Shown: positions 4,474 to 33,359 of the stretch, piece by piece
Layout: each line of letters opens with the position of its first letter
Numbering within the stretch: the stretch's first letter is position 1
Assembly (NCBI GenBank): GCA_026786085.1
Contig: JAJAYT010000558.1
Coordinates: forward strand, 1-33,655
Length of the DNA: 33,655 nt
Direction: 5' to 3'
Source: Microcoleus sp. CAN_BIN18
Lineage (GTDB): Bacteria; Cyanobacteriota; Cyanobacteriia; Cyanobacteriales; Microcoleaceae
The notes under the pieces: model-generated
Seen by the model: the letters and a program-made list of their open reading frames with translations, nothing else
Databases searched by the model: none
What the model was told of the DNA's origin: nothing
Program-made: the position numbers and the translations under genes

Positions 4474-7400
4474 TTACCTTTTTCTCCCAGCACCCAACTC
4501 TGCCATCATTTCTTCAACTTGAGCTGATACCAAATTATCGGGATCATCTTGCAGCCTGGGCAGCAATTCAAGCAAAGCCCGAGGCGAAGCTATTTTCAAA
4601 TAGGCTAACACTGCTTCGCGGACAAAACCCGTCGGGTGTTGCAGACAGACGAGAGTTTGTTGAGCAGTAAGGCTCCAGCGCGCTTCTCTAGCCAAGTGAA
4701 AGCAGCAGGCCAAAGCCCAATCCGAAAGGAAGTGGCGCAATTCTAGCAAGCGGCGCAAACGATCGCTAGGGGCTAGAGCTTTGTAAACCATCAATTCGGA
4801 GAGGTTGCTCAATTTTTCTCTTTCCGAGTGCTGCTCGAACAAATTCAGGAGCGATCGCTTCCTAGCGATATCCACAGTATTATCGAGAATTTCCAATCCC
4901 CTAGCCACCAAAGAAGGTTGACCCGAAGCGATGTTAAAAGCAGCGGCTTGTACAGTCTCCAGCGGATAAAGAAACTTCATCAGCAAAAAACACCGATCGG
5001 TGGCATCAGCTTCCAACCCCGTCAGAGCCCGCTGCAACAATTGAGCCGTATCGTTTCCATGTGTCCCGGCGCTGTTCGGATCTCGATCGGCAAAATTGCC
5101 GTAGGTTGTCACCCCAGACAAATCTACCAGACCGGCATAAATTTGACCGATAAACATCAACTCCTGCTCGATGAGAGTTTCCAATCCGCTGCGGCCGATG
5201 CGGTCTAGAACCCCTTCTATCCCCGCTTCCGAAGGCATTTTCAACAGGATGCGGAGGATGTTGCGCCTGGTAGTTCCCCAAGTCGTCATCAAATTGCTGA
5301 CCAAAATGTCGATCGCCTCCACAGTCCCAATTTGACCCAGAGCCGTCCAAGCTTGCAACCTGACCAAATCCGACTTATGGATATCCTCAGCCAAATAGAC
5401 GAGCAAAGGAATCGCATCATTGTGAAGTTTGACGATCGCCTGCAAAGCCGCTTCCCGAGTCGATTTGTAACCAAGTCCGCGCAGCAGCGAAGGATAATAT
5501 TCTTCCGAATGAGTAGAAGAAATCACGTCTAACAGAGCACAGCGCACTCGCAGAGATTCATCTTGCAACAAATTGGGGATGTACAGCCGCAGTCCTTGCA
5601 AATAATCGGCCTCTCCCAGAGCCCGCGTGCCCATCACCCGTTCCCGTTCTTGCTTGTGCGTCAGCATTTGGCGCAGCGTGTTAGTAGCCTCTGCCTTTTG
5701 CTGGCGATCGCCCCTTCTCATAATTAAAGCAGCAGCCGTACCCCGCACCACCGGATCGACGATCGGCTGCAAGTAAGGCCGCAAGCTGTCGATATTCGGT
5801 TCAGCTTCCGTCAGCCAGATGTAGCGCAAAGCCAAGGCCAGCACCTCCGGCGGCAAGGATTGCTGCGAAAGCGCCCGTACAGCTTCTAAATATTCCGGGT
5901 TCGGGTGTTGCAGCATAGTTTCCAAGCTCTGGCGCTGCAAAGCTGAAGGCAACACTTCCAGGATGGGTGCCAAAACTTCTCCGACATTTTTCGGGTCAAT
6001 TTGGGTCAGGAGTTCTATGCAAGCGCGCTTTTCATCTTCGCCCCCCGGCTTTTCCAAAGTTTCCACCACTGCACGCTTCAGAGCTTTGAGGTCAACGTCG
6101 GTGACGCCCAAGCGCCCGCGTTCGGCACTTTTGACCAACAAACCCACGTATTGAGAGCGGATCAGCCACACCACAAATACCCACAGCAGGGCCAAAAGTA
6201 CGATCGCCCCGATGAATACCAAGCTTTGGTTGTCGTGAAATAGCGTGTCCTTTTCGTCTTGGTGGGGCAGTACCTTGTCTGTCACCCACAGCATAATTAG
6301 GATGCCGACTCCTGTCACTCCGCAGGATAAAGGTTCGCCCACACCATTGACGAGAGTTTGAATGCCCGATCGAATATTGTCAGGGATGGGTTGAAACAAA
6401 ACCGGGCTAATCGTTTCCAACAGCGTGTAGTGTAGCAATTCGTCGAAAAATCTCAGCAATATCAGTCCGATGAACACAGGCACTAGCTGGCCGAGCGATG
6501 CTCCTATGGTCAGCACGCCTAGAATAGCGATACCCGCCGGCAAAATCATCGCCGTCACGAATACACCGATTCTTTCTACCAAGCGGCTGGATGCGAACCA
6601 CTGAGTCGCGACTTGAAACAAGCCTTGTATGCCTTCGTAAATGCCCAGGAAGCTAGCGATCCAGCTAGCTCCACTCGCGCCGTCCGAAGGGTTTTGGTAT
6701 TCTAGCTGGCTGTAGAATTGAAAATCTACCAACACGTAGACGACTTCTGCGAGGACGAAGAAACTGACTAGAGGTACGGCGTATTTTTGCAGCGGGCCTG
6801 TAACTTTGCGGGCGGTAAATTCTTGTTGATCGTCCTCGTCCTCGTCCTCTGTCCAGTGAGCCGTTTCCGGGAAAGCTTGGCGGTATTTTTCCGTCAGGTA
6901 GTACAGCAACAGCGAGCCTGTCGCCACCATTAACCCCGATATCAGAGTAACGTTTTTGAGTCCGACTACGTACAGCAAAACAGGCAGAGAAAACCCGCTG
7001 ACTACTCCAGCCACTAAATAGCCGCTGCTAACTAGCGGATAAGTGCGCTTGATTTCTCTAATATTAAACAGTTGGTTGGAAGTGATGGAAGTATTCAGGT
7101 CATTGAGGACATAGCAAGCTTCCACCCACAGCCACATCAAAAAAATAGTAATAAAAGCGATACTGATGCCAGCTATCTTAGTATTTTCGTAGCCGATGCC
7201 GAATCGAAACAGGAATAGCGGTACCGACATCATTGCCAGAACCACTACGACGGTGCGCCTTAGCGGCAGGATTTTTTGCAGCCACGAGTAGACAAATCCC
7301 AAACCAGAACCGATAAAGGCGCTGGCTATATAGATATAGGGCATTTTGTCCGCACCGAATTCGTCTAGAAAAAGACCTACTGTGCTGAGCTCCAGCCAGA

Positions 7401-7533
7401 TCAGCCCTACGGACGTTAAACTGTAGACAAGGAACATCAGTACGGTTCGCTCTACTTCTTCCGATCGCAGGTTAAGCGATCGCAGCACTTTTTGTCTCAC
7501 TCCCGCCGAACCGCTGATTTGAAAATTGTCCAT
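4474..7533 (-). CDS. Large membrane protein: MFS / ATP-ADP-translocase(NTT)-like N-terminal half plus C-terminal HEAT repeats
   Basis: 1019 aa; about 430 aa of multiple TM helices followed by a soluble alpha-helical repeat region (ERERVMGTRALGEADYLQGL, SLRVRCALLDVISS, LVRLQAWTALGQIGTVEAIDIL). Confidence 0.85.
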   Translation of the reverse strand: MDNFQISGSAGVRQKVLRSLNLRSEEVERTVLMFLVYSLTSVGLIWLELSTVGLFLDEFGADKMPYIYIASAFIGSGLGFVYSWLQKILPLRRTVVVVLAMMSVPLFLFRFGIGYENTKIAGISIAFITIFLMWLWVEACYVLNDLNTSITSNQLFNIREIKRTYPLVSSGYLVAGVVSGFSLPVLLYVVGLKNVTLISGLMVATGSLLLYYLTEKYRQAFPETAHWTEDEDEDDQQEFTARKVTGPLQKYAVPLVSFFVLAEVVYVLVDFQFYSQLEYQNPSDGASGASWIASFLGIYEGIQGLFQVATQWFASSRLVERIGVFVTAMILPAGIAILGVLTIGASLGQLVPVFIGLILLRFFDELLHYTLLETISPVLFQPIPDNIRSGIQTLVNGVGEPLSCGVTGVGILIMLWVTDKVLPHQDEKDTLFHDNQSLVFIGAIVLLALLWVFVVWLIRSQYVGLLVKSAERGRLGVTDVDLKALKRAVVETLEKPGGEDEKRACIELLTQIDPKNVGEVLAPILEVLPSALQRQSLETMLQHPNPEYLEAVRALSQQSLPPEVLALALRYIWLTEAEPNIDSLRPYLQPIVDPVVRGTAAALIMRRGDRQQKAEATNTLRQMLTHKQERERVMGTRALGEADYLQGLRLYIPNLLQDESLRVRCALLDVISSTHSEEYYPSLLRGLGYKSTREAALQAIVKLHNDAIPLLVYLAEDIHKSDLVRLQAWTALGQIGTVEAIDILVSNLMTTWGTTRRNILRILLKMPSEAGIEGVLDRIGRSGLETLIEQELMFIGQIYAGLVDLSGVTTYGNFADRDPNSAGTHGNDTAQLLQRALTGLEADATDRCFLLMKFLYPLETVQAAAFNIASGQPSLVARGLEILDNTVDIARKRSLLNLFEQHSEREKLSNLSELMVYKALAPSDRLRRLLELRHFLSDWALACCFHLAREARWSLTAQQTLVCLQHPTGFVREAVLAYLKIASPRALLELLPRLQDDPDNLVSAQVEEMMAELGAGRKR

Positions 7534-8017
7534 ACAGCGTTGATTTCCCTTTGTGGTAGCTGATTCCTGACGATTCTTGATGAACTTCGATCGTCAACAG
7601 CTATCAATCACCAGTTTTTTTATGACCAATGACTGATGACTAATGACTAATCATAAAAAATTTTGGTAAGTAAGTGGGAAACAAGCGTGGCTTTAGCCCT
7701 TTTTAGGGAAACGACACGGGCAGTTTCAACACTTCGGCTTCGCTCGGAGTGACAGCCGCTTAAATCCCCTTGCGAGGGTGGAGGGGTACAACGACTGACG
7801 ACGATGCCCCTCCGTGGAGATATGGTTGTCTCGCCCGCCCTTTCGGGTAATGTTCGCTTGTCTGTCAATGTTATCAGAGCTTTTTAGACCTACAACACTG
7901 CCGAGCCTGACTTTAAGACTATTTAATTGCAGATGACAGGGCTCTTTACTCTTAGTCGCATCCACAGGATGTCTTGACTCAAAAAACACTTGCCAGTTAA
8001 GGCTTAAGTCCTTCGGC

Positions 8018-8049
8018 ACAGCTTGAAGAGAGCGATCTCTTCAAGCTGT
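8018..8049. other. Perfect 14-bp stem hairpin downstream of infC
   Basis: acagcttgaagaga-gcga-tctcttcaagctgt, no adjacent U tract. Confidence 0.7.
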
Positions 8050-20985: not shown

Positions 20986-21879
20986 TTGAACAACTTTACT
21001 TCCCTGGAAATAGAAGTCGCCGAAACATTGCTGAGATTAGGAATGTTACTGGGCTTAACACTTTTAATCGCATTTTTTGTGGCGGCAGAACTAGCATTAG
21101 TATCAGCAGACAGACATCAAATCCGTCAACTCGCCCGGTTGCGCGATCGCCCAAACGCCAAAACCGCCGAACTCGTCCACCAAGCGCAGAAAAACATACC
21201 GCATTATCTGTCGGTGACTCAAACTGGCACAACAGCAGGGAGTTTGCTGTTGGGTTGGTTGGGCGAGGGAGCGACTGTGCACTGGATCGAGCCCTGGATC
21301 GACAAATTGGCGATCGGTCATTTTCCCGCTATGCTGACAGCGCATTCGATCGCAATTCCCGCAGCTTTCATCTTAGTAACTTACATCGAAATAGTATTAG
21401 GAGAACTCATTCCCAAAGTATTAGCAAACCACGCCCCAGAACGCACCGCTTTGCTGCTAATGCCTGCCCTCGAAATCTGTTCGAGATTACTGTGGCCGCT
21501 GCTAGCAATTCTCAACGGTACTGTGCGGCTGCTGACAGGTTGGATTACCAGTAAAAAATCAGAACCGCTGCTGCAAACTTCCGAAGCCACTATCATTCAA
21601 AAAGATGCTCATTCAGCACTAATTTCCGGCATCTGGGAAGTGACAGCAGTTAACCAAAAACTCGGGTTAAACCTGCCGATTAACGAAGCTTACCAAACAA
21701 TTGCTGGATTTATGATTCACAATTTAGGTAAAATGCCAACTCAAGGCGATAGATTATTGTGGGGCGAATTAGAAATAGAAGCAGCAACTGTAGTAGAAGG
21801 TAGTTTAGAAACAGTGCTGCTGCGCCAAGTAACACGCCCTTTGTTTGAGCCCCAACATCCAGAACTCGTATTGAATTAA
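20986..21879 (+). CDS. CNNM (DUF21)/HlyC-CorC family protein lacking CBS domains, TTG start
   Basis: DUF21-like N-term (FFVAAELALVSADRHQIRQLA, YIEIVLGELIPKVLA) followed directly by a CorC_HlyC-like C-term (GIWEVTAVNQKLGLNLPINEAYQTIAGFMIHNLGKMPTQGDRL). Confidence 0.85.
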   Translation: MNNFTSLEIEVAETLLRLGMLLGLTLLIAFFVAAELALVSADRHQIRQLARLRDRPNAKTAELVHQAQKNIPHYLSVTQTGTTAGSLLLGWLGEGATVHWIEPWIDKLAIGHFPAMLTAHSIAIPAAFILVTYIEIVLGELIPKVLANHAPERTALLLMPALEICSRLLWPLLAILNGTVRLLTGWITSKKSEPLLQTSEATIIQKDAHSALISGIWEVTAVNQKLGLNLPINEAYQTIAGFMIHNLGKMPTQGDRLLWGELEIEAATVVEGSLETVLLRQVTRPLFEPQHPELVLN

Positions 21880-21909
21880 ATTACCGTTTTTAATAATAGT
21901 AATATCCCC

Positions 21910-21978
21910 GTAGGGAAACGGCAGTGCCGTCTCCTCTGATAGAAACGGTAGGGAAACGGCAGTGCCGTCTCCTCTGAT
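21910..21978. repeat. 31-bp direct repeat x2 with palindromic core
   Basis: gtagggaaacggcagtgccgtctcctctgat at 21910-21940 and 21948-21978. Confidence 0.95.
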
Positions 21979-22054
21979 GGACAAGGCAATGCCCATTGAT
22001 GTCAATTTAAGGTCAAACCCTTAGTCCGGCAGGGACTGAAGTCCCTGCCTCAAA

Positions 22055-22112
22055 GCGAAAGTCCTCTAAAGAGGACTAATGAGTTCTTTAGTCCTCTTTA
22101 GAGGACTTTCGC
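22055..22112. repeat. Long inverted repeat with 25-bp perfect arms, each arm containing its own palindrome
   Basis: gcgaaagtcctctaaagaggactaa ... ttagtcctctttagaggactttcgc, 8-nt loop. Confidence 0.95.
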
Positions 22113-22280
22113 TATTAGACAGGGGTTTAAACCCCTGGCGGTCTTTCGGCTTAAGTTGACACCTATTGGCAATGCCGTGTCCCTACAGATATCGTCTACA
22201 ATCCACCGGATTTGAGATCAATTCAATCCTGAGATTTGAGACTAACAAATAATCCCAAACCTCAAAAACTGCACCCTTTC

Positions 22281-25200
22281 TCACCCAACAGCCACCTTAA
22301 CCCCAACAAACCGCTCGTAATCCTCCAACAACCACGGAGGCAAACAACTATTCGCATCCTGAACTTGCAACTGCCCAGCGCGACAAAACAGCATCGCCGC
22401 CAACAAATTATTTACAGCTTGAGGCGTTCCAAACCCTTTACTCAACTCAGCAACCAACGAGTTAAAAAACCCACGTTCGCTCTCAGTTAGAGGCTCGTTA
22501 ATAAACCCACTGTCCAGCATTGCGTTGTAACCTTTACCGAAATCGCTCCGGTACAAAAATTCCAATTGTTCAGCGGAAACGCTCAGCCACAAATCAGCAA
22601 TTTGCTTGCGAATTTGCCGCAAATCTGATATTACCAATTCAGCCGTCGGGTCGATTTCATAAAGATTCACAGCAGCAGTTAATTGATTGAGAAACTGCGG
22701 CAGATAATCTTGTTTAACAATGGTTGTTTCTGTTTGAGAAAATACGCTTTCAAACACATTTTCGTAATCGTCAATCAACCACTTGGGCAAGCGAGTCCGA
22801 GCGTCGGGAACCCGCATTTTTCCAGGAACAAAATAGAGCATTGCACCCAGCAAAGCATTGATAGCTTGAGGATTCACTAACCCTTTACTAATTTCAGTCA
22901 ACTGCTGCAAAAACTTTTGTTCGGCTTCAGTCATTGATTCTGCTTGCAAGCCGCAGCTAAGTAGTGCTTGATATCCCTTGCGGACTTCTCCTTGATAAAA
23001 ATTTTGCAATAGTTCTGTAGGAACAATCAGCCAAAAATCAGCCAGTTGTTTGCGGATTTGGCGGAGTTCCAAAACTACGGATTCGTCAGACGGATCGATG
23101 CGGTAAAGATTGACGCATCCTAATAGTTGATTTGCAAATTGCGGGGATTGAATGTATTGCGCTAGCAAGTCAGAACTTGACTCGGACTTGACTGTGGATT
23201 CTGGCTCAAAAACTTGTTCGTAATCGCCAATTAACCACTGCGGCAAGCGGTTTCGAGCTTCGGGAATTCGCATTGTTCCCGGTGGGAAATACAGCATCGC
23301 CCCCAGCAAGGCGTTGACTGATTTGGGATGCACTAATCCTTTGCTAATCTGGGTTAATTGCTGCAAAAATATTTGTTCGTCTTCCATCATTGCTTGCTTT
23401 TGAAAGCCGGAAGCAAGCAGGAATTTGTAGCTTTTACCGTCAGCACTTTTGTAGGCGGTTTCGAGATTTTCGGTGGGAATATTTAGCCAGAAATCTGCAA
23501 TTTGTTTGCGGATTTGACGCAGTTGAGATATTGCTGAGATGTTTGATGAATTTCTCTGGTAAAGCTGGACAGCATTCGAGAGTTTCTCGATCGCATCTGG
23601 CTGCTTGGGAATGCTATCCTGTAAGCTGCGGGATACTTCCAGGTGGCTGGTTTGCCATTTGCCAAAGAGTTCTTGGAATAATTTGCCGATCGCCCCCGAG
23701 TATGCAACACTGTCAAAACAGGCGGGATTGGCTTGCATTTTTTGCTGAATTTCCTGCCGTTTTTGCTGCCGCAATTGCGGGTTAGTCGCGAGATTAACGG
23801 CTAATTGAATGTAAGATGTTTCATCGCGCGCAATTAGATCAGAAATTCCCAATTCTCGCAGCATCGCCGCACCTTGACGGAAGCGCAAAGCATTTCCTTC
23901 CACAACCACCGTCGGTAATCCTACTTGCAAAGGATCGATTAACGATGTCGCCCCAGCGTAAGGATAGGAATCGAGATAAACATCTGCTAGCTGCAAAAAC
24001 TCTTTGACATCCGCCCGATTTGGCAGTTGTTTGACGAATAGCAAACGGTTATTATTCACGCCGTATTTAGCGCAGATAGCGTTCATATTGTTAACAAAAG
24101 GTGTCACTGGATAAGTGCGAGTCCAAGCCGGCCCGAAGGGATATAAAATCAAGATTGAATTGGGTACGGCTGCTAGAATTTTTACCCAAGTTTCTCTCAA
24201 TTCTGGCAGAATTTTGTAAAAGTTAGCGCCCGAGATAAACACTGTTGTGTTGTCGGAAATTCCCATACTTTGGCGAGTAGGTTTGACTGTTGCTACTTCC
24301 GATTCTGTGGCATATTTGAAACAAAAACCGCTGCCTTCGAGAGTTGCTAACTGTTCCCGATATTGTGCTTGATAACTCGCATCCGGCGTGGTAAATTTGC
24401 CTGCTATGTAGTAATCCATGTGCCGACTTCCGGTGGTTGTCGGGGAACAGAATGATGTAGTTTGTACCCTGGCTAAACGGTGCATTGCTAGGGAACCAAC
24501 TGGTTTGTTGATAGCTGTTAAATTCGTACCGAAAAACAGGATATCTAAGTCGTCGGCGCGAATAGTTTGGACTTGCGATCCAAATTCTTTCGGGAGTGCA
24601 ACAAGTTTGTCGGCGCGACTTTGACAGTATTGTTCTAATTGGTGGCCGCTGGTGTTGAGCGCGTACAGGTAAATCTCGAACTGGTTGCGGTCTAAATGCT
24701 CGAACACCGGGATGGTGGCGAAGGTTTCGGTTTGCGGCGCGAAATGGTCGCTGATGATGCCGAGGCGGATTTTTGTCCGCGCGGGCGATCGCCCTGGGAA
24801 GATACAATCAATCGAACAACCGCGATTTTTGAGCGCAAACTCGATAATATCCGCCCGCTTTGTGTAAATCTCGCGCAGATTAGCCGTGGTAAAGTACAGC
24901 GGAATAAAGTTAGCAACTTGCGAGAAAAATAAGGCAATATTCTGCCAAAGCGGTGAATCGGCATTCTGGAACAAATTAGTATGTATGTAATCAATCCACC
25001 CGGCAATAAATTGATAATAATTGTCTGCTTCACCTGCGGTTTGAAATAAGTTCGGACAGGTAAACATGAATTTGAGATATTCGTTGGCAAACCAATTCGG
25101 TAGCTTGGCGCGATCGTACTTGAGCGGCAATTGGTGGGGGCGGCGATACAGCATCGCTGCTAACAGGTAATTGATCGCCTTGGGATCATTAAATCCTTTT

Positions 25201-26561
25201 GCCACATTCGCAGTTAATTCGCTGACAAAACTCTCTTCTATATCAGTTAGCGGTTCATCTCGAATGTCGCTGTTAAGAATTCCCTGGTGCTGTTTTCCAG
25301 CATCACCTGCAAAGGCACTTGCCACTTGTTCGGCTGGTAAATTAAGCCAAATTGCTGCAATTTGTCTCCGAGCTTGGCGGACATTTGCTAGTGCAGATAA
25401 ATCGGCGGAATTTTTCTGGTATTGCTCGATAATGCTTGACAAAAATATTGGAGTTTCTGCCACCCTTCCAGAAATTTGCTGTTGGCTACCGCAGGCTTGC
25501 ATCAATGCTGCGCTAACAGTTTTTGCCATTTTTGACCAATTAAATTTGCGGGATTGTCCGAGTCCAGCCGAAATCAACGAGTTGCGAATATCCGGTTTCT
25601 GCACGTCAAATAGCGCATTTCCCAGTGCATTCACATCATTCTCACTAACATAAAATGCTGCTTCGCCTGCGACTTCGGGAATCGAGCTGTTGGGAGAAGT
25701 GATAACGGGACAACCGCAAGCCATTGCTTCTAATATGGGCAGCCCGAAGCCTTCATACTTCGTGGGGAATACGAGGGCGATCGCACCTGAGTAAGCCGCC
25801 CTTAATTCATCGTCACCCAAATACAGCAGGTGGACATTTACATCAGCAGTGTACCGTTGTAATGTGGGTTCTAGCGAAGGTTGACCGCTCGTACAAACAA
25901 CATCAAATCCTGATTTAGTGCTGAGTCTAGATAAAGCTTGAAAAAAGGCGATCGTATTTTTATAACCGTTGAATCCTAATCGTTCTCCAACTATGAGAAA
26001 GTAGGGTTTTTCAATCCGGTGTGCATTTTTAAATGCTGCTATTTCTGGTAGACTAGAAGCATAAAAATGTGGTTGAATGCCACAGTGGGCGATCGTAATT
26101 GATTGGGGAGATATTTCTGGAAAAAACTTTACTAAGTCGCGGGCTGTGCTCTGGGAAATGGCGATGTAGGAAGATGCTTGGCGGATAGCATGATGTTTTT
26201 CTCGCCACATGGGATTATTCATATCGCCTCCCGTAGCTTCGGGTATCATGTCATAGGCGACAAATGCCGATCGCGTGGAAAGCGGTGTTGTATAGTAGGT
26301 AGAGACAAATAAATCGGCATTTTCGCGATCGCACATTTGCTGCAACATTTGTCTGTCAGCATCAGTTTTGTTATAATCGTAAACCGGAATCGAGCGATAT
26401 TCAATGCCCGCAATCTTCGGTATTGTGCCCGCGCGGTCTAACATCACAATATGCTGAGCAAAACCAGATTTTACCCATTCTGCCATCAAAGACTGCCAAA
26501 CGCGAGAAATCCCGCTTTTCTGCTGACTTTGAAAAAATATGCCGTCAATAACTATTTTCAT
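22281..26561 (-). CDS. Giant modular glycosyltransferase: GT4 - repeat A - SPINDLY/OGT-like (GT41) - repeats B, C, D
   Basis: 1426 aa; GT4 motifs ([39 protein letters not shown]); SPINDLY-type motifs ([78 protein letters not shown]); four ~125-aa internal repeats. Confidence 0.92.
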
Positions 26562-26583
26562 GATTCGTGAGTTTCCTGTAAAA

Positions 26584-27912
26584 TTACGATAAAGCAGTTC
26601 GATAAGCAGCGATAGTTTCTTGAGTGCACCTTTCCCAGCTAAAAAGTTTAGCTTGCGCCAAAGATTTTAAAGACATACTTGCTCGCAGTGACGAATTGTT
26701 GTAGATTTCCAGCATACTATGACAAAGCGCATCAGTATCATTTGGATCTACCATAATTCCCGCATCCCCAACTACTTCCGGAAGCGAAGACGTATTGGAA
26801 GTAATCACCGGTACTCCGCACTGCATCGCTTCCAGAGGCGGCAAACCAAAACCTTCATAAAATGACGGATAGACAAATGCTAAAGCACTACTATACAGCG
26901 CTGCTAAATCCGATTCCGGGACATATCCGGTAAAAATTATCCGGTCTTTGAGAAAGTTTTTCTTAGAAACTTCTGCCATAATATTATCGTATTTCCACCC
27001 CGGAGTCCCCACTAAAACCAGATATAAGTCTTTAATATTTTGTTCCTCAATTAGTTTAGCAAAACTGCGGATTGCACCATCAAGATTTTTGCGCGGTTCC
27101 AGTGTACCCAAACTCAAAACATAAGGAGCATCTGGAATCCCGTATTTACTACGCATTGAAGCAAGTTTCGCCGCATCGCGACAGGGATAAAATATACTCG
27201 GTTCCGCAGCTAAGTGAGTAACAAAAACTCTCGATTCGTCAATCTTTAGATAATTGCAAAGGTCGTTTTTTGTTGAATAGGATATGCAAGTTATGCAGTC
27301 ATTTTGCAAAATACTAGCTAAGCTTTTTTTCTGAAGGAAAGAGACTCGCTCGTCGAGAATAAACTGCGGATGTAAAATTGGGATTAAGTCGTAACTTGTC
27401 AGAAATACTTGCAGTTTATTTACTGTCTTTACCGATGCCGGTATTTCATCGTAGGGAGAGTGAAAAATATCGACTTCATCTAAGTTTCCAGAGTCGATAG
27501 TATTAGAATAACCGCCCATCATTTGCAGCGTGTTTTCTAAATGATTTTTCACTTCGTTTAAAAATAACTTATCCTCCCCTAGATTGCTAGCCTCATTAAT
27601 TTTTGTTTGACACCCAACCAGATTGTAAGTATCGATCAGCTTTTTGTAAAAAATCCTGGCAAAGCTGGAGTGCAGCAGGGGAACTTTTGCTAATTTAGGA
27701 TTAGACTGTAGGTAATCGAGGCTAGCATCTAGCAACTGAAAATACTGATTAACGCTAAACATTAAATCGCATTCTTGCGAGCGTGTCAATCCTTCAGCAA
27801 TACTTTCAACAACTCGAAAAATTCCTGTGCGAGCGAGCAAATGCAAATGTCCTTGTCCGAGGACTGAAATATCGTAGATAACTTTTATTGGCTCTCGATT
27901 TGATGTTCGCAT
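26584..27912 (-). CDS. Glycosyltransferase family 4
   Basis: [67 protein letters not shown]. Confidence 0.95.
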
Positions 27913-27933
27913 AGGTTATGATTGATTATTTTT

Positions 27934-30867
27934 TTAGCTGGATAAAGCAATTTTGTAGGCAGCAATTGTCTCCTGAATGCACCTGTCCCAACTAAATTTT
28001 TGAGCTTGTTTGAGCGACTTTAATGACATCTCATGACGCAAAGATGGACTGTTATAAATTTTTAGCATATTGTGGCAAAGTCCGTCAGCATCTTGAGGAT
28101 CGAGCATAATTCCTGCATCGCCAACTACTTCGGGAAGAGATGAGGTATTTGAAGTAATGACAGGAGTACCGCACTGCATTGCTTCTAAAGGTGGAAGGCC
28201 AAAACCTTCATAGAGCGACGGATAAACAAATGCTAGCGCACCGCTGTAAAGTGCCGCTAAATCTTCATCAGCTACATAACCAGTCATAATCACCCGGTCT
28301 TTTGGTAAACTGTTCTGAGATATTTCTGTAAATATATGTTCGTAATCCCAGCCCAGAGGGCCAACTAATACGAGGTACAAATCTTTGATGCCTTGCTGTT
28401 GGACTACTTTTGCAAAACAACGGATGGCGTGTAGGATATTTTTGCGAGGTTCTATCGTACTTACACCCAAGATGTATTGTGCATCAGGTATGGAGTATTT
28501 TTTTCTGATAGTTGCAATCTTGTTGGTGTCACGGCAAGGATAGAATGTATTCGGATTAGCTGCTAGATAGGAAACACAAACTTTTGCTGGATCAAGATTT
28601 TTTACGTGATTGAGTAGGTCGTTTCTCGTGGCGCGAGATATGCAGATTATCGAATCTTCGGGAGTTAAAGTTTGTAATGACATTACCATTCTCTGATAAT
28701 CGACATCGTTTTTGCCTATAAATAAATCTGACAAGATAATGGGAATCAAATCGTAAATTGTCGAAATTTTTTTCAGGCTTTTAACTTGCCTTACTTGGTC
28801 TGGTATGTGATAAAATGTGGAGTGATAAATATTTGTTTCGTTCAAGATTTGGGGGTCGAGGGAGTTACGATCAATGGTGAGATTCATCGCCTGAGCTATA
28901 GGATCTTTTAAGCTTTCTATTAAAGACTGATTATCTGATTTACTGCCATTATTCATCATAACTTTACTCTGATTTTCCAGCATTCTGTAAAGTTCAGTTA
29001 GTTTGGTACGCAATTCACAAATAAACTTGGGATGTACGAAGGGTATGTCTTTGAAAATAGGCTGCGATTCCAAATAATTCAGGGAATTGTGCACGGCATA
29101 TATAGAATGAGTGGCAGAAAAAGATAGCTCTAATTCTGTTGAGGGAAGTAAGCCCAATGCAATATTCTCGATAACTCTAGCAACGCCTGTTCGAGAACGA
29201 TTTAGCTGATGTCCGTATCCGAGAACGGAGATGTCATAAATAATTTTGAGGGGTTTTTCTAATTGTTGACCGCTAACTGGTATTAACTGGGAATTGTCTG
29301 CTTTTTTATAATAGTCTTTGTGGATAATCAGCAGCAGAGAGGTAGCCACATAACCGCCCATTTCTAATTTTAGATGCGGTTCGGTATAAGGTTGTCTTGC
29401 TACTTTTAAGTCAGGCTGTTGATTGCCCATGTCATAGTTTACAGGCTCTACCCAGTGTCCTTGCTTTTCTAATTGTTGAATTAGCCGATCGATATCTTGA
29501 CGCCTGTAAAATACTAAATTGGGTAAATCTAGCGTACCAGCATTCGAGGTACAATTATATTCTGTTGTGTGAAGGGCAATTCCGCCACTCTTTAAACAAG
29601 CTAAAGATTTCTGAACAAATCGCAGCCCTTTTTCGATCGAGCCGATGTGTTCAAAAGCACAGGATGACCAAATAAAGTCGAATTTCTGCTGCTGTAAATC
29701 TTGAGGAATGTAGTTCATATCTACATCCCGAACTTCAACTAATCTATCAAATTGTTCGGGCGGACAAATTCGTTTCGCATTCAGAGCTTCTTTGCCTTTA
29801 CAAAGTTGGTTTGTCTCGCCCCATTCTTTTTGGCTAATAGGATTTAAACCTTGATCTGTGGCGACAATTTCGCAGCCCAAGGAAGCAAATAAAGAAGGCA
29901 GCGGTTCATTTCCGACAGCAAATCCTAAACCTCTTTTGCCATTAGCCAGAAAGTTTCTTTCTTGCAAAGCTTGGACAATTGCTACAAATTCCCACTGTTT
30001 GCGTGCGGGAGTAAACTCTTCTCTCATTTGGGCAATCCAATGCCGATAATAATCTGTTTGGAAATCTTTGTAGACACATAGCTTGCTGGTGAGCAAAAGT
30101 TTTTCTGGCTGTTGCGGAATGCTTGGGATTAAGTTTCTGGCAGCAACTTTGGTGATTTCGAGAACAGCAATCGCATTGGCAAAACTAAAGGGCGAATTAT
30201 ATTCTACATTGCTAAGTTCTAGGGGATTCGCTTGTACCCAAACTGAACGGTGTGTTGCTCTGTGGTAGGTTTGGACTAACTTTAAAAAACTGGGATTTAT
30301 CGCACTTTGTGGAATCTGGTATTTTTGAGATAAGAGGTTCAAGTAATCTCGATCGAACTGGATAAACCATCCCCTTTCTAAAAGCTTGCCAAAGGGTACT
30401 GTAATCAATGCTTGACCGCCATCAGACAGCAAATCATAAATTTTGGCGATCGCCTTTAAAGGCCCTTCTCGATCGCACTTTTCGAGATTTTCACCGTAAG
30501 TTTGATTTGGTTCAGCTCCTTGTCCGATATGTTCTACTGTAGAGATGGAGATTATAGCACTATATTTCTGGGATGGTGCAAGATCCATTAAATCTACATT
30601 CTCTACTCCGTCAGCTACTTCGTATTTATCTATAACTCTTCTAGCTTGAATTTGTGCCCGATCTTGCTCGATCAGTGCTTCATAATGTTTCAGCACGTTG
30701 CCGACTTCTAGCAGTCTGGTTTTGTCCTTTAATCTGGCCAGAAAATTGCAGGCTACGGGAATTTCTACTGCTCTCTCAGAACAGGGGAAATTATTGTGTT
30801 CGATGCGATTGTACGGCAACCGTTGCCCGTTGAAAATAAAAGTATCTGACAAGTCTAACATTGACAA
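27934..30867 (-). CDS. Fusion protein: two SAM-methyltransferase-like domains followed by a GT4 glycosyltransferase
   Basis: 977 aa; MT-like segments ([13 protein letters not shown]...[46 protein letters not shown]...[42 protein letters not shown]); C-terminal GT4 ([61 protein letters not shown]). Confidence 0.92.
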
Positions 30868-31316
30868 TTTACCACAAAAAATAAAGGTATATTAATCGTT
30901 TTTTCTGAACAGGCTAGGAGGGCCTGTTAAGAGAGAATGGTGCAAAATGTGAGTTTGACCCACTCAACACTTTGACCGAAGACGGCTGTATCGATCGGCT
31001 TGTTCCGTATGGGCAAAGATGCTCAACTCAGCTTGCACTCGCATAATATTTTCAAAATGCTTGACAAATTCATTTTTTAGGTGTATCCAACTGAGCTTTA
31101 TACATATCGATCGGCAGTTCGATCGCAGATTAAATCTAGCCCACAAGCGCAATCTTGGGAAGCCGGAGGGCGATCGTCGGTTGATGGTTTTAGACACCAG
31201 GGCGAATACTTTCAGCCTTACCAAGAAAGAATTGGTTTAAAGCCTCTCCCCTAAAGGCGAGAAATTAAAATCAGACGATTCATTACTCCAATCCTCTTCC
31301 TTCTAGGTAGAGATAG

Positions 31317-31354
31317 CTGTCAACTGTCAACTGTCAACTGTCAACTGTCAACTG
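31317..31354. repeat. Heptanucleotide tandem repeat (ctgtcaa x5 plus partial unit)
   Basis: Read directly. Confidence 0.95.
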
Positions 31355-31520
31355 AACAAGAAAGCCAGCCCAGCCCTATGCCATCTCTTCGAGAGCGCTA
31401 AATCCTGGTTGCTTCACAAAATAATTACGGGCCGCAAACAAGTTACAATTACGTTAAGATTGATGAACATAAATAAAAAATCCCAAGTCACAGGGACTAA
31501 AAATTAGGAGATCGACCTCG

Positions 31521-33359
31521 GTGAATAAACGCTGGAGAAACGCAGGCCTGTACGCACTTCTGGCTATTGTAGTCATTGCCTTAGCAACCGCATTTTTTGA
31601 TAAACAGCCCCCAAGCCGGGAAGTCTGGAAGTATAGCCAATTCATTCAGGAAGTCGAAAGCGACAGAGTAGACAAAATAAACATCAGTTCCGATCGCAGC
31701 AAAGCCCTCGTCACAGCCCAAGACGGCAGCAAAGTGATCGTCAACCTGCCGAACGACCCCGAACTGATCAACATCCTGACCAAAAATAAGGTAGATATTT
31801 CGGTTCTACCCCAAAACGACGAAGGCTTCTGGGTAAAAGCCCTCAGCAGCCTGTTCTTCCCGATTTTGCTCTTGGTGGGACTGTTTTTCTTGGTGCGACG
31901 CGCCCAAAACGGGCCCGGCAACCAAGCCATGAACTTCGGCAAATCCAAAGCTAGAGTCCAAATGGAGCCGCAAACTCAGGTGACTTTCAGCGACGTGGCC
32001 GGCATCGAACAAGCCAAGCTAGAACTCGCCGAAGTCGTAGACTTCCTGAAAAATGCCGATCGCTTCACCGCAGTCGGAGCAAAAATCCCCAAAGGTGTGC
32101 TGCTAGTCGGCCCTCCCGGAACAGGCAAAACCCTGCTGGCTAAAGCAGTTGCTGGAGAAGCAGGCGTTCCCTTCTTCTCGATTTCCGGTTCAGAATTTGT
32201 AGAAATGTTTGTGGGTGTGGGTGCTTCCCGCGTCCGCGACTTGTTTGAACAAGCTAAAACCAACGCTCCTTGCATCGTATTTATCGATGAAATTGACGCC
32301 GTAGGCCGTCAACGCGGCGCCGGTATGGGTGGTGGTAACGACGAACGGGAACAAACCCTGAACCAGTTGCTGACCGAAATGGACGGTTTTGAAGGCAATA
32401 CTGGGATTATTCTGATTGCTGCTACAAACCGCCCTGATGTGCTGGATGCTGCGCTGCTGCGTCCAGGTCGCTTCGATCGCCAAGTTGTGGTCGATCGCCC
32501 CGACTTCGGAGGCCGTCTCGAAATTCTCAACGTTCACGCCCGCGGCAAAACTTTGTCAAAAGATGTGGATTTAGAGAAAATCGCCCGCCGGACACCCGGT
32601 TTCACCGGTGCAGATTTGGCGAACTTGCTGAACGAATCGGCAATTTTGGCAGCCCGCCGCAACTTGACCGAAGTCTCGATGGATGAAGTCAACGATGCGA
32701 TCGACCGCGTGCTCGCAGGCCCAGAAAAGAAAGACCGTGTGATGAGCGAAAAGCGCAAAACCTTAGTTGCTTACCACGAAGCCGGTCACGCCTTAGTCGG
32801 TGCTTTGATGCCCGATTATGACCCAGTTCAAAAAATTAGCATTATCCCCCGCGGCCGCGCTGGCGGTTTGACTTGGTTCACACCAAGCGAAGATCGGATG
32901 GATTCTGGCTTATATTCTCGCTCTTACTTGCAAAATCAAATGGCGGTAGCTCTAGGCGGCCGCATTGCTGAAGAGATTGTCTTCGGTGAAGAAGAAGTGA
33001 CCACCGGTGCTTCCAACGATTTGCAACAAGTAGCAAGAGTCGCACGCCAAATGGTGACTCGCTTCGGTATGAGCGATCGACTAGGCCCTGTAGCTCTGGG
33101 TCGCCAACAAGGCAATATGTTCATGGGTCGCGATATCATGGCTGAACGGGATTTCTCCGAAGAAACCGCATCCATGATCGACGATGAAGTGCGTTTGTTG
33201 GTAGAACAAGCTTATCGCCGCGCTAAAGATGTACTCGTCGGCAACCGCCACGTCCTCAATGCTTTGGCTGATATGCTAGTTGAAAAGGAAACTGTGGATT
33301 CGGACGAATTGCAAAATTTGCTGGCTAACAGCGATGTCAAGATGGCGACTATTGCCTAA
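31521..33359 (+). CDS. ftsH: ATP-dependent zinc metalloprotease FtsH, GTG start
   Basis: 612 aa; [52 protein letters not shown] region, HEAGH zinc motif. Confidence 0.98.

Follow-up and report, generated by a model that had tools for sequence, protein, structure and literature searches.

How the acceptors of family 41 glycosyltransferases (GT41) are chosen is an open question, and its answers have so far rested on two accessory domains, the TPR and the AAD. The window analyzed here, the whole stretch of 33,655 nucleotides from Microcoleus sp. CAN_BIN18, encodes a 1426-residue protein in which a GT4 and a GT41 domain are accompanied by four copies of another segment, and the locus raises the question of what this repeated module is and what it might do for the enzymes that carry it. 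A third, unrelated helical module, occurring with an enzyme, as a tail and free, would allow acceptor recognition to be probed with small soluble proteins.

A Pfam search of the protein assigned its N-terminus to GT4 and a region of its latter half to GT41, with no match to any of the four module segments. Both enzyme domains of the original prediction were thereby confirmed (GT4, residues 1-360; GT41, SPINDLY-like, about residues 593-970), and its coordinates for copies A to D agree within a few residues with the boundaries set here by a hidden Markov model (HMM). The best 19-residue hydropathy was 1.35 and no transmembrane-like stretch was present, so that the protein is predicted to be cytoplasmic. 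The features of the window are the following:

20986..21879 (+): CNNM/CorC-type gene; borders the tail side, conserved, yardstick of vertical inheritance
22281..26561 (-): ORF encoding the 1426-aa protein; GT4 - module A - linker - GT41 - modules B, C, D
22311..22673 (-): module copy D, aa 1297-1417; C-terminal
22758..23117 (-): module copy C, aa 1149-1268; copy used for the single-module model (pLDDT 93.9)
23214..23573 (-): module copy B, aa 997-1116
23652..24785 (-): GT41 (SPINDLY/OGT-like) GT-B domain, about aa 593-970
23754..23840 (-): head/tail exchange boundary zone, aa 908-936; 10 of 26 related genomes show the identity jump here
24786..25055 (-): helical linker, aa 503-592; precedes GT41, conserved together with GT41
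25071..25433 (-): module copy A, aa 377-497; GT41-associated type
25482..26561 (-): GT4 domain, aa 1-360; exchangeable enzyme at the N-terminus
26584..27912 (-): GT4 gene upstream, part of the variable island
27934..30867 (-): methyltransferase-GT4 gene, likewise upstream and within the variable island
31521..33359 (+): ftsH; conserved gene at the edge of the island, with 97-100% identity where covered

A repeated all-helical module

An alignment of the four copies spans 129 columns, 28 of them invariant, with pairwise identities of 36% (AB), 33% (AC), 36% (AD), 59% (BC), 43% (BD), and 49% (CD), and every pair scored 39-80 standard deviations above shuffled sequence. An HMM of 121 positions was refined on loci of Microcoleus sp. 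CAN_BIN18 and other genomes, with 117 module copies left after those more than 85% identical were dropped. A module copy had no match in Pfam even at E=5 and none in NCBIfam, and a profile of 80 copies matched no chain among the PDB sequences at E=10. AlphaFold modelling of copy C (80 sequences) yielded eight helices with a pLDDT of 93.9 and a pTM of 0.88. Foldseek comparison of this model with the PDB gave a best E of 3.4 and TM values of 0.35 or less, with NGT not among the matches, and comparison with BFVD gave nothing below E=0.9. The lack of a PDB or BFVD fold match for a high-confidence model indicates that the module is neither a TPR nor the AAD of NGT, and its modelled fold is likely new when compared with these two collections. 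A second model, of residues 369-1426, arranged the helices of every copy in the same order and included a GT-B domain that matches OGT and SPINDLY; with an overall pTM of 0.57, it leaves the placement of the modules relative to the active site uncertain.

These results uphold the original prediction of four homologous segments of an uncharacterized, all-helical repeat: the alignment, the shuffling test, and the common helix order agree on the homology, and AlphaFold and the empty Pfam and PDB searches on the rest. The two checks that it proposed, a profile search and a structure prediction, went the same way, as no known Pfam family, TPR included, was found for the repeat and the four predicted segments share their helix order. 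A search of the open literature found no described cyanobacterial GT41 module. The module is both real and conserved, and the resources searched hold no description of it; the system is best read as a variety of GT41 protein glycosylation that relies on a probably new helical domain.

The suggestion that the repeat stands in the place of TPRs was also borne out for this genome. Five other GT41 proteins of CAN_BIN18 carry TPRs (one of them weakly), the two module-bearing ones have none, and Pfam found no TPR match in the 1426-residue protein. It might be argued that the module is itself a very divergent TPR- or SEL1-like superhelix, and the protein an ordinary OGT type, since the module is all helical and occupies the TPR place in GT41 proteins. 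The silence of Pfam at E=5, the empty PDB profile search, and the poor best fold match (E=3.4, TM at most 0.35) of a model with a pLDDT of 94 nevertheless make this explanation highly improbable, as does a unit of about 121 residues with helices of unequal length, unlike the 34-residue TPR unit.

Copy A, the exchanged heads and the constant tail

Membership of the catalytic domain in family 41 was found both by profile (PF13844, E=1.6e-35) and by its GT-B fold, which matched OGT, XcOGT, and SPY at E of about 1e-20 to 1e-16. The NGT family model covered no more than a short stretch of the GT41 core, and in a PDB search with the whole-protein model AaNGT appeared at rank 50, presumably via the GT-B part. 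K783 aligns with the nucleotide-contact lysine K665 of SPY (K842 of OGT) and is invariant in 33 homologues, and Y868 and T872 align with Y744 and T748 of SPY; the importance of all three SPY residues was shown by mutation (PMC9715652). The active-site histidine H495 of SPY (H558 of OGT) was aligned with a proline by phmmer, where a local shift is possible. The GT41 domain is probably an active transferase.

The module and GT41 also occur together without GT4 (L146, L074), and in pairwise comparisons of 27 Microcoleus genomes identity in copy A tracks identity in GT41 (r=0.89) and not in the tail (r=0.29). Given these observations and the lack of TPRs in the module-bearing GT41 proteins, copy A is best seen as the N-terminal part of the GT41 unit, and the proposal that it is a linker stitching GT4 to GT41 was not sustained. 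B-C-D is a tail separate from the A-GT41 unit.

The tail and the enzymes have had different histories. In genomes that cover both borders, the locus is flanked by ftsH and by the CNNM gene, followed by brkB. Across the 27 Microcoleus genomes, tail identity tracks CNNM identity (r=0.84, Mantel p=0.0002). The correlation with CNNM is weak for GT41 (r=0.14) and for the N-terminal cassette (r=0.15), and GT41 is less than 70% identical in 87 of the 179 genome pairs with a tail identity of at least 80%. Ten of the 26 relatives show a jump at residues 908-936, where their nucleotide identity to the window, about 63% before it, becomes 83-89% (log-likelihood gain of 54-113). A further break lies near residue 345 in L056 (same contig as L156), where GT41 is 97% identical at the DNA level and GT4 65%. 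The sharp breaks, together with the contrast in correlation, reveal that the heads are exchanged while the tail stays. A mere difference in rate was ruled out as the cause of the low GT41 identities, because in genomes that share the allele the conservation of GT41 usually equals or exceeds that of the tail, and because the low values are accompanied by the sharp break.

The region from ftsH to the CNNM gene (20986-33359, and loci L155-L180) is a variable island of glycan enzymes. The genes at 26584-27912 and 27934-30867 have orthologues in only some Microcoleus genomes, and long fused GT2/FkbM/methyltransferase heads replace them in others.

A tree built from 79 modules clusters the copies of Microcoleus, Kamptonema, and relatives according to their position in the protein, which places the four-copy layout before the radiation of these genera and rules out recent tandem duplication. 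In this unrooted tree copy D joins the A-type group, with good support for the split (100/97). The view that A was an older insertion and B-D a later tandem expansion thus proved too simple: the copies are indeed homologous, but all four are old and D lies on the side of A. That the tail is constant and the enzymes are exchanged could not be seen from the one sequence. The tails of Okeania and Trichodesmium have two module copies, not three. The reading frame and all four copies are intact in 27 of 27 Microcoleus genomes, and the dN/dS of each copy, about 0.1-0.3, indicates that all four are under purifying selection.

Hosts of the module and its standalone relatives

The module was present in all 30 Microcoleus genomes examined, in 7 of 7 other genera tested from the same family, and in 43 of 386 genomes sampled across the phylum. 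Weak matches in two genomes from a different class within the phylum were judged to be due to chance (E about 2e-4, in-frame stop). The module is a cyanobacterial family. Its hosts include GT41 proteins whose heads are GT4, GT2, methyltransferase, or sulfotransferase-like, GT2-only proteins (L092, L093, L098) and a CmcI-like methyltransferase (L135), both of which carry it as a tail, and a plasmid-borne TIGR03032-family protein of Acaryochloris. The module also occurs outside glycosyltransferases, beyond what the original prediction could see.

At two further loci (L085, L086), a sulfotransferase-like domain, the module, and GT41 are combined in a single protein, and a large RTX-type ORF lies close by. 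Elsewhere in the CAN_BIN18 genome (L150:4106-7129, contig C233), a TPR-GT41 protein has a C-terminal DUF4915 (PF16261, E=1e-139), and an RTX/FG-GAP gene lies near it.

Standalone proteins of two modules were found at 13 loci in 12 genomes, within a family with genomes of 1.9-3.3 Mb, presumably picocyanobacteria to judge by their genome size and gene content. A HlyD-type match lies 0.4-1.2 kb away at 8 of the 13 loci. Given 3-18 HlyD matches in each genome, chance alone is estimated to bring one within 1.2 kb of about 1-2% of loci, although the loci are related and hence not independent. HlyD, ABC exporter, and PPIase genes occur at other module loci; at L129-L133, the two-module protein is near such a cluster, and at L130 and L131 a TPR-GT9 protein adjoins it. 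GT41 genes are about 5-6 kb away at 5 of the 13 loci, and Pfam GT41 is absent from 3 of the 12 genomes, so that the module cannot act only with GT41.

An RTX exoprotein gene adjoins all three GT41-linked loci examined (L127, L128, L134), and the gene order in two GT41-linked loci is two-module protein, GT4, RTX protein, and GT41. At L127, L128, and L134 the two-module protein adjoins GT4 (PF12000) and the RTX protein, with GT41 about 5-6 kb off, and each looks like a locus for glycosylation of an RTX exoprotein. The two-module protein of L134 is divided between two overlapping ORFs (7122-8035), which suggests a frameshift or decay.

Beside the Microcoleus locus itself, an RTX gene was sought and not found, and no type I secretion gene was seen; the link to export thus rests on distant relatives. 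A search of filamentous relatives for HlyD genes close to the module found none. The CAN_BIN18 genome abounds in RTX matches, so that their mere presence says little.

Proposed role and comparison with known systems

The reading preferred here is that the module is an undescribed cyanobacterial domain of a cytoplasmic protein glycosylation that precedes export, with copy A facing the acceptor and B-C-D serving as a docking tail; we give it an even chance of being correct. The enzyme would glycosylate proteins in the cytoplasm before they are exported. Copy A would bind the acceptor in place of the TPRs of OGT and SPINDLY or the AAD of NGT, a role assigned by analogy, because the TPRs of SPY contact the protein substrate (PMC9715652) and the AAD of NGT recognizes the acceptor sequon (PMC10507012). 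The B-C-D tail would dock the enzyme to a partner, either a secreted acceptor protein or other module-bearing enzymes, and the swap of catalytic heads from strain to strain would change the sugar decoration while the target is kept. RTX exoproteins are plausible acceptors, since SwmA and oscillin are glycosylated RTX surface proteins of cyanobacteria (PMC3034196). The role in acceptor choice or scaffolding that was originally put forward is likewise kept here as an inference.

A further reading, offered tentatively, treats the module as a universal docking handle of new fold, in which the fixed B-C-D tail would define the target and the heads (GT4, GT2, FkbM or other methyltransferases, and GT41 alleles) would be swapped by recombination to diversify the surface glycan. 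Such a constant/variable design would be comparable to that of restriction-specificity and polymorphic-toxin genes.

The main rival to the preferred reading is a pure scaffold, in which modules bind each other and gather enzymes for an exopolysaccharide or lipid-linked glycan, with no protein acceptor involved. It finds support in the L135 cluster of one lineage, where GT2/GT4, three-module, methyltransferase, and GT2-GT41 proteins each bear a module, and in heads that form multi-enzyme chains of GT2, GT4, and methyltransferases. The GT41 fold, however, is known from protein glycosylation, and the standalone two-module proteins adjoin type I secretion genes even where Pfam GT41 is absent; the scaffold is considered somewhat unlikely. 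The more sober rival holds that the constancy of the tail reflects no more than its position outside a recombining island of glycan genes; B-C-D would then only mark the place at which homologous recombination stops, and would not act as a dedicated platform. The exchanged region does extend from within the gene toward ftsH, and the tail diverges like the adjoining CNNM gene, as a flanking recombination arm would. Yet the frame and three tail copies are kept in 27 of 27 genomes, the copies are under purifying selection, and related tails occur in other genera and on other enzymes, which renders this account doubtful. That heads are exchanged while the tail stays constant suggests that protein glycosylation in the filamentous cyanobacteria dominating soil crusts and mats is modular and recombines naturally.

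Of the known systems nearest to it, SPINDLY and bacterial OGT share with the Microcoleus protein a GT41 catalytic domain with the Lys, Tyr, and Thr around the nucleotide kept, and a helical module N-terminal to it. Unlike them, the Microcoleus protein lacks TPRs and does not keep the SPY H495 position, has extra module copies as a C-terminal tail, and belongs to a GT41 type fused to GT4, GT2, and methyltransferase domains. The HMW1C-like NGT, which transfers hexose to the Asn of N-X-S/T, also combines the GT41 fold with a non-TPR helical domain, and glycosylates exported proteins in the cytoplasm with an AAD that reads the acceptor; the module has no fold match to the AAD, and is repeated and mobile here. 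The glycosylation and export loci of SwmA and oscillin resemble those of the module's standalone relatives, which adjoin RTX, GT4, GT41, and type I secretion genes, whereas the Microcoleus locus has no such neighbor. The likeness to docking domains of assembly-line enzymes, such as polyketide synthases, is an analogy of layout only: in both, a small helical domain is carried by different enzymes whose catalytic parts can be exchanged.
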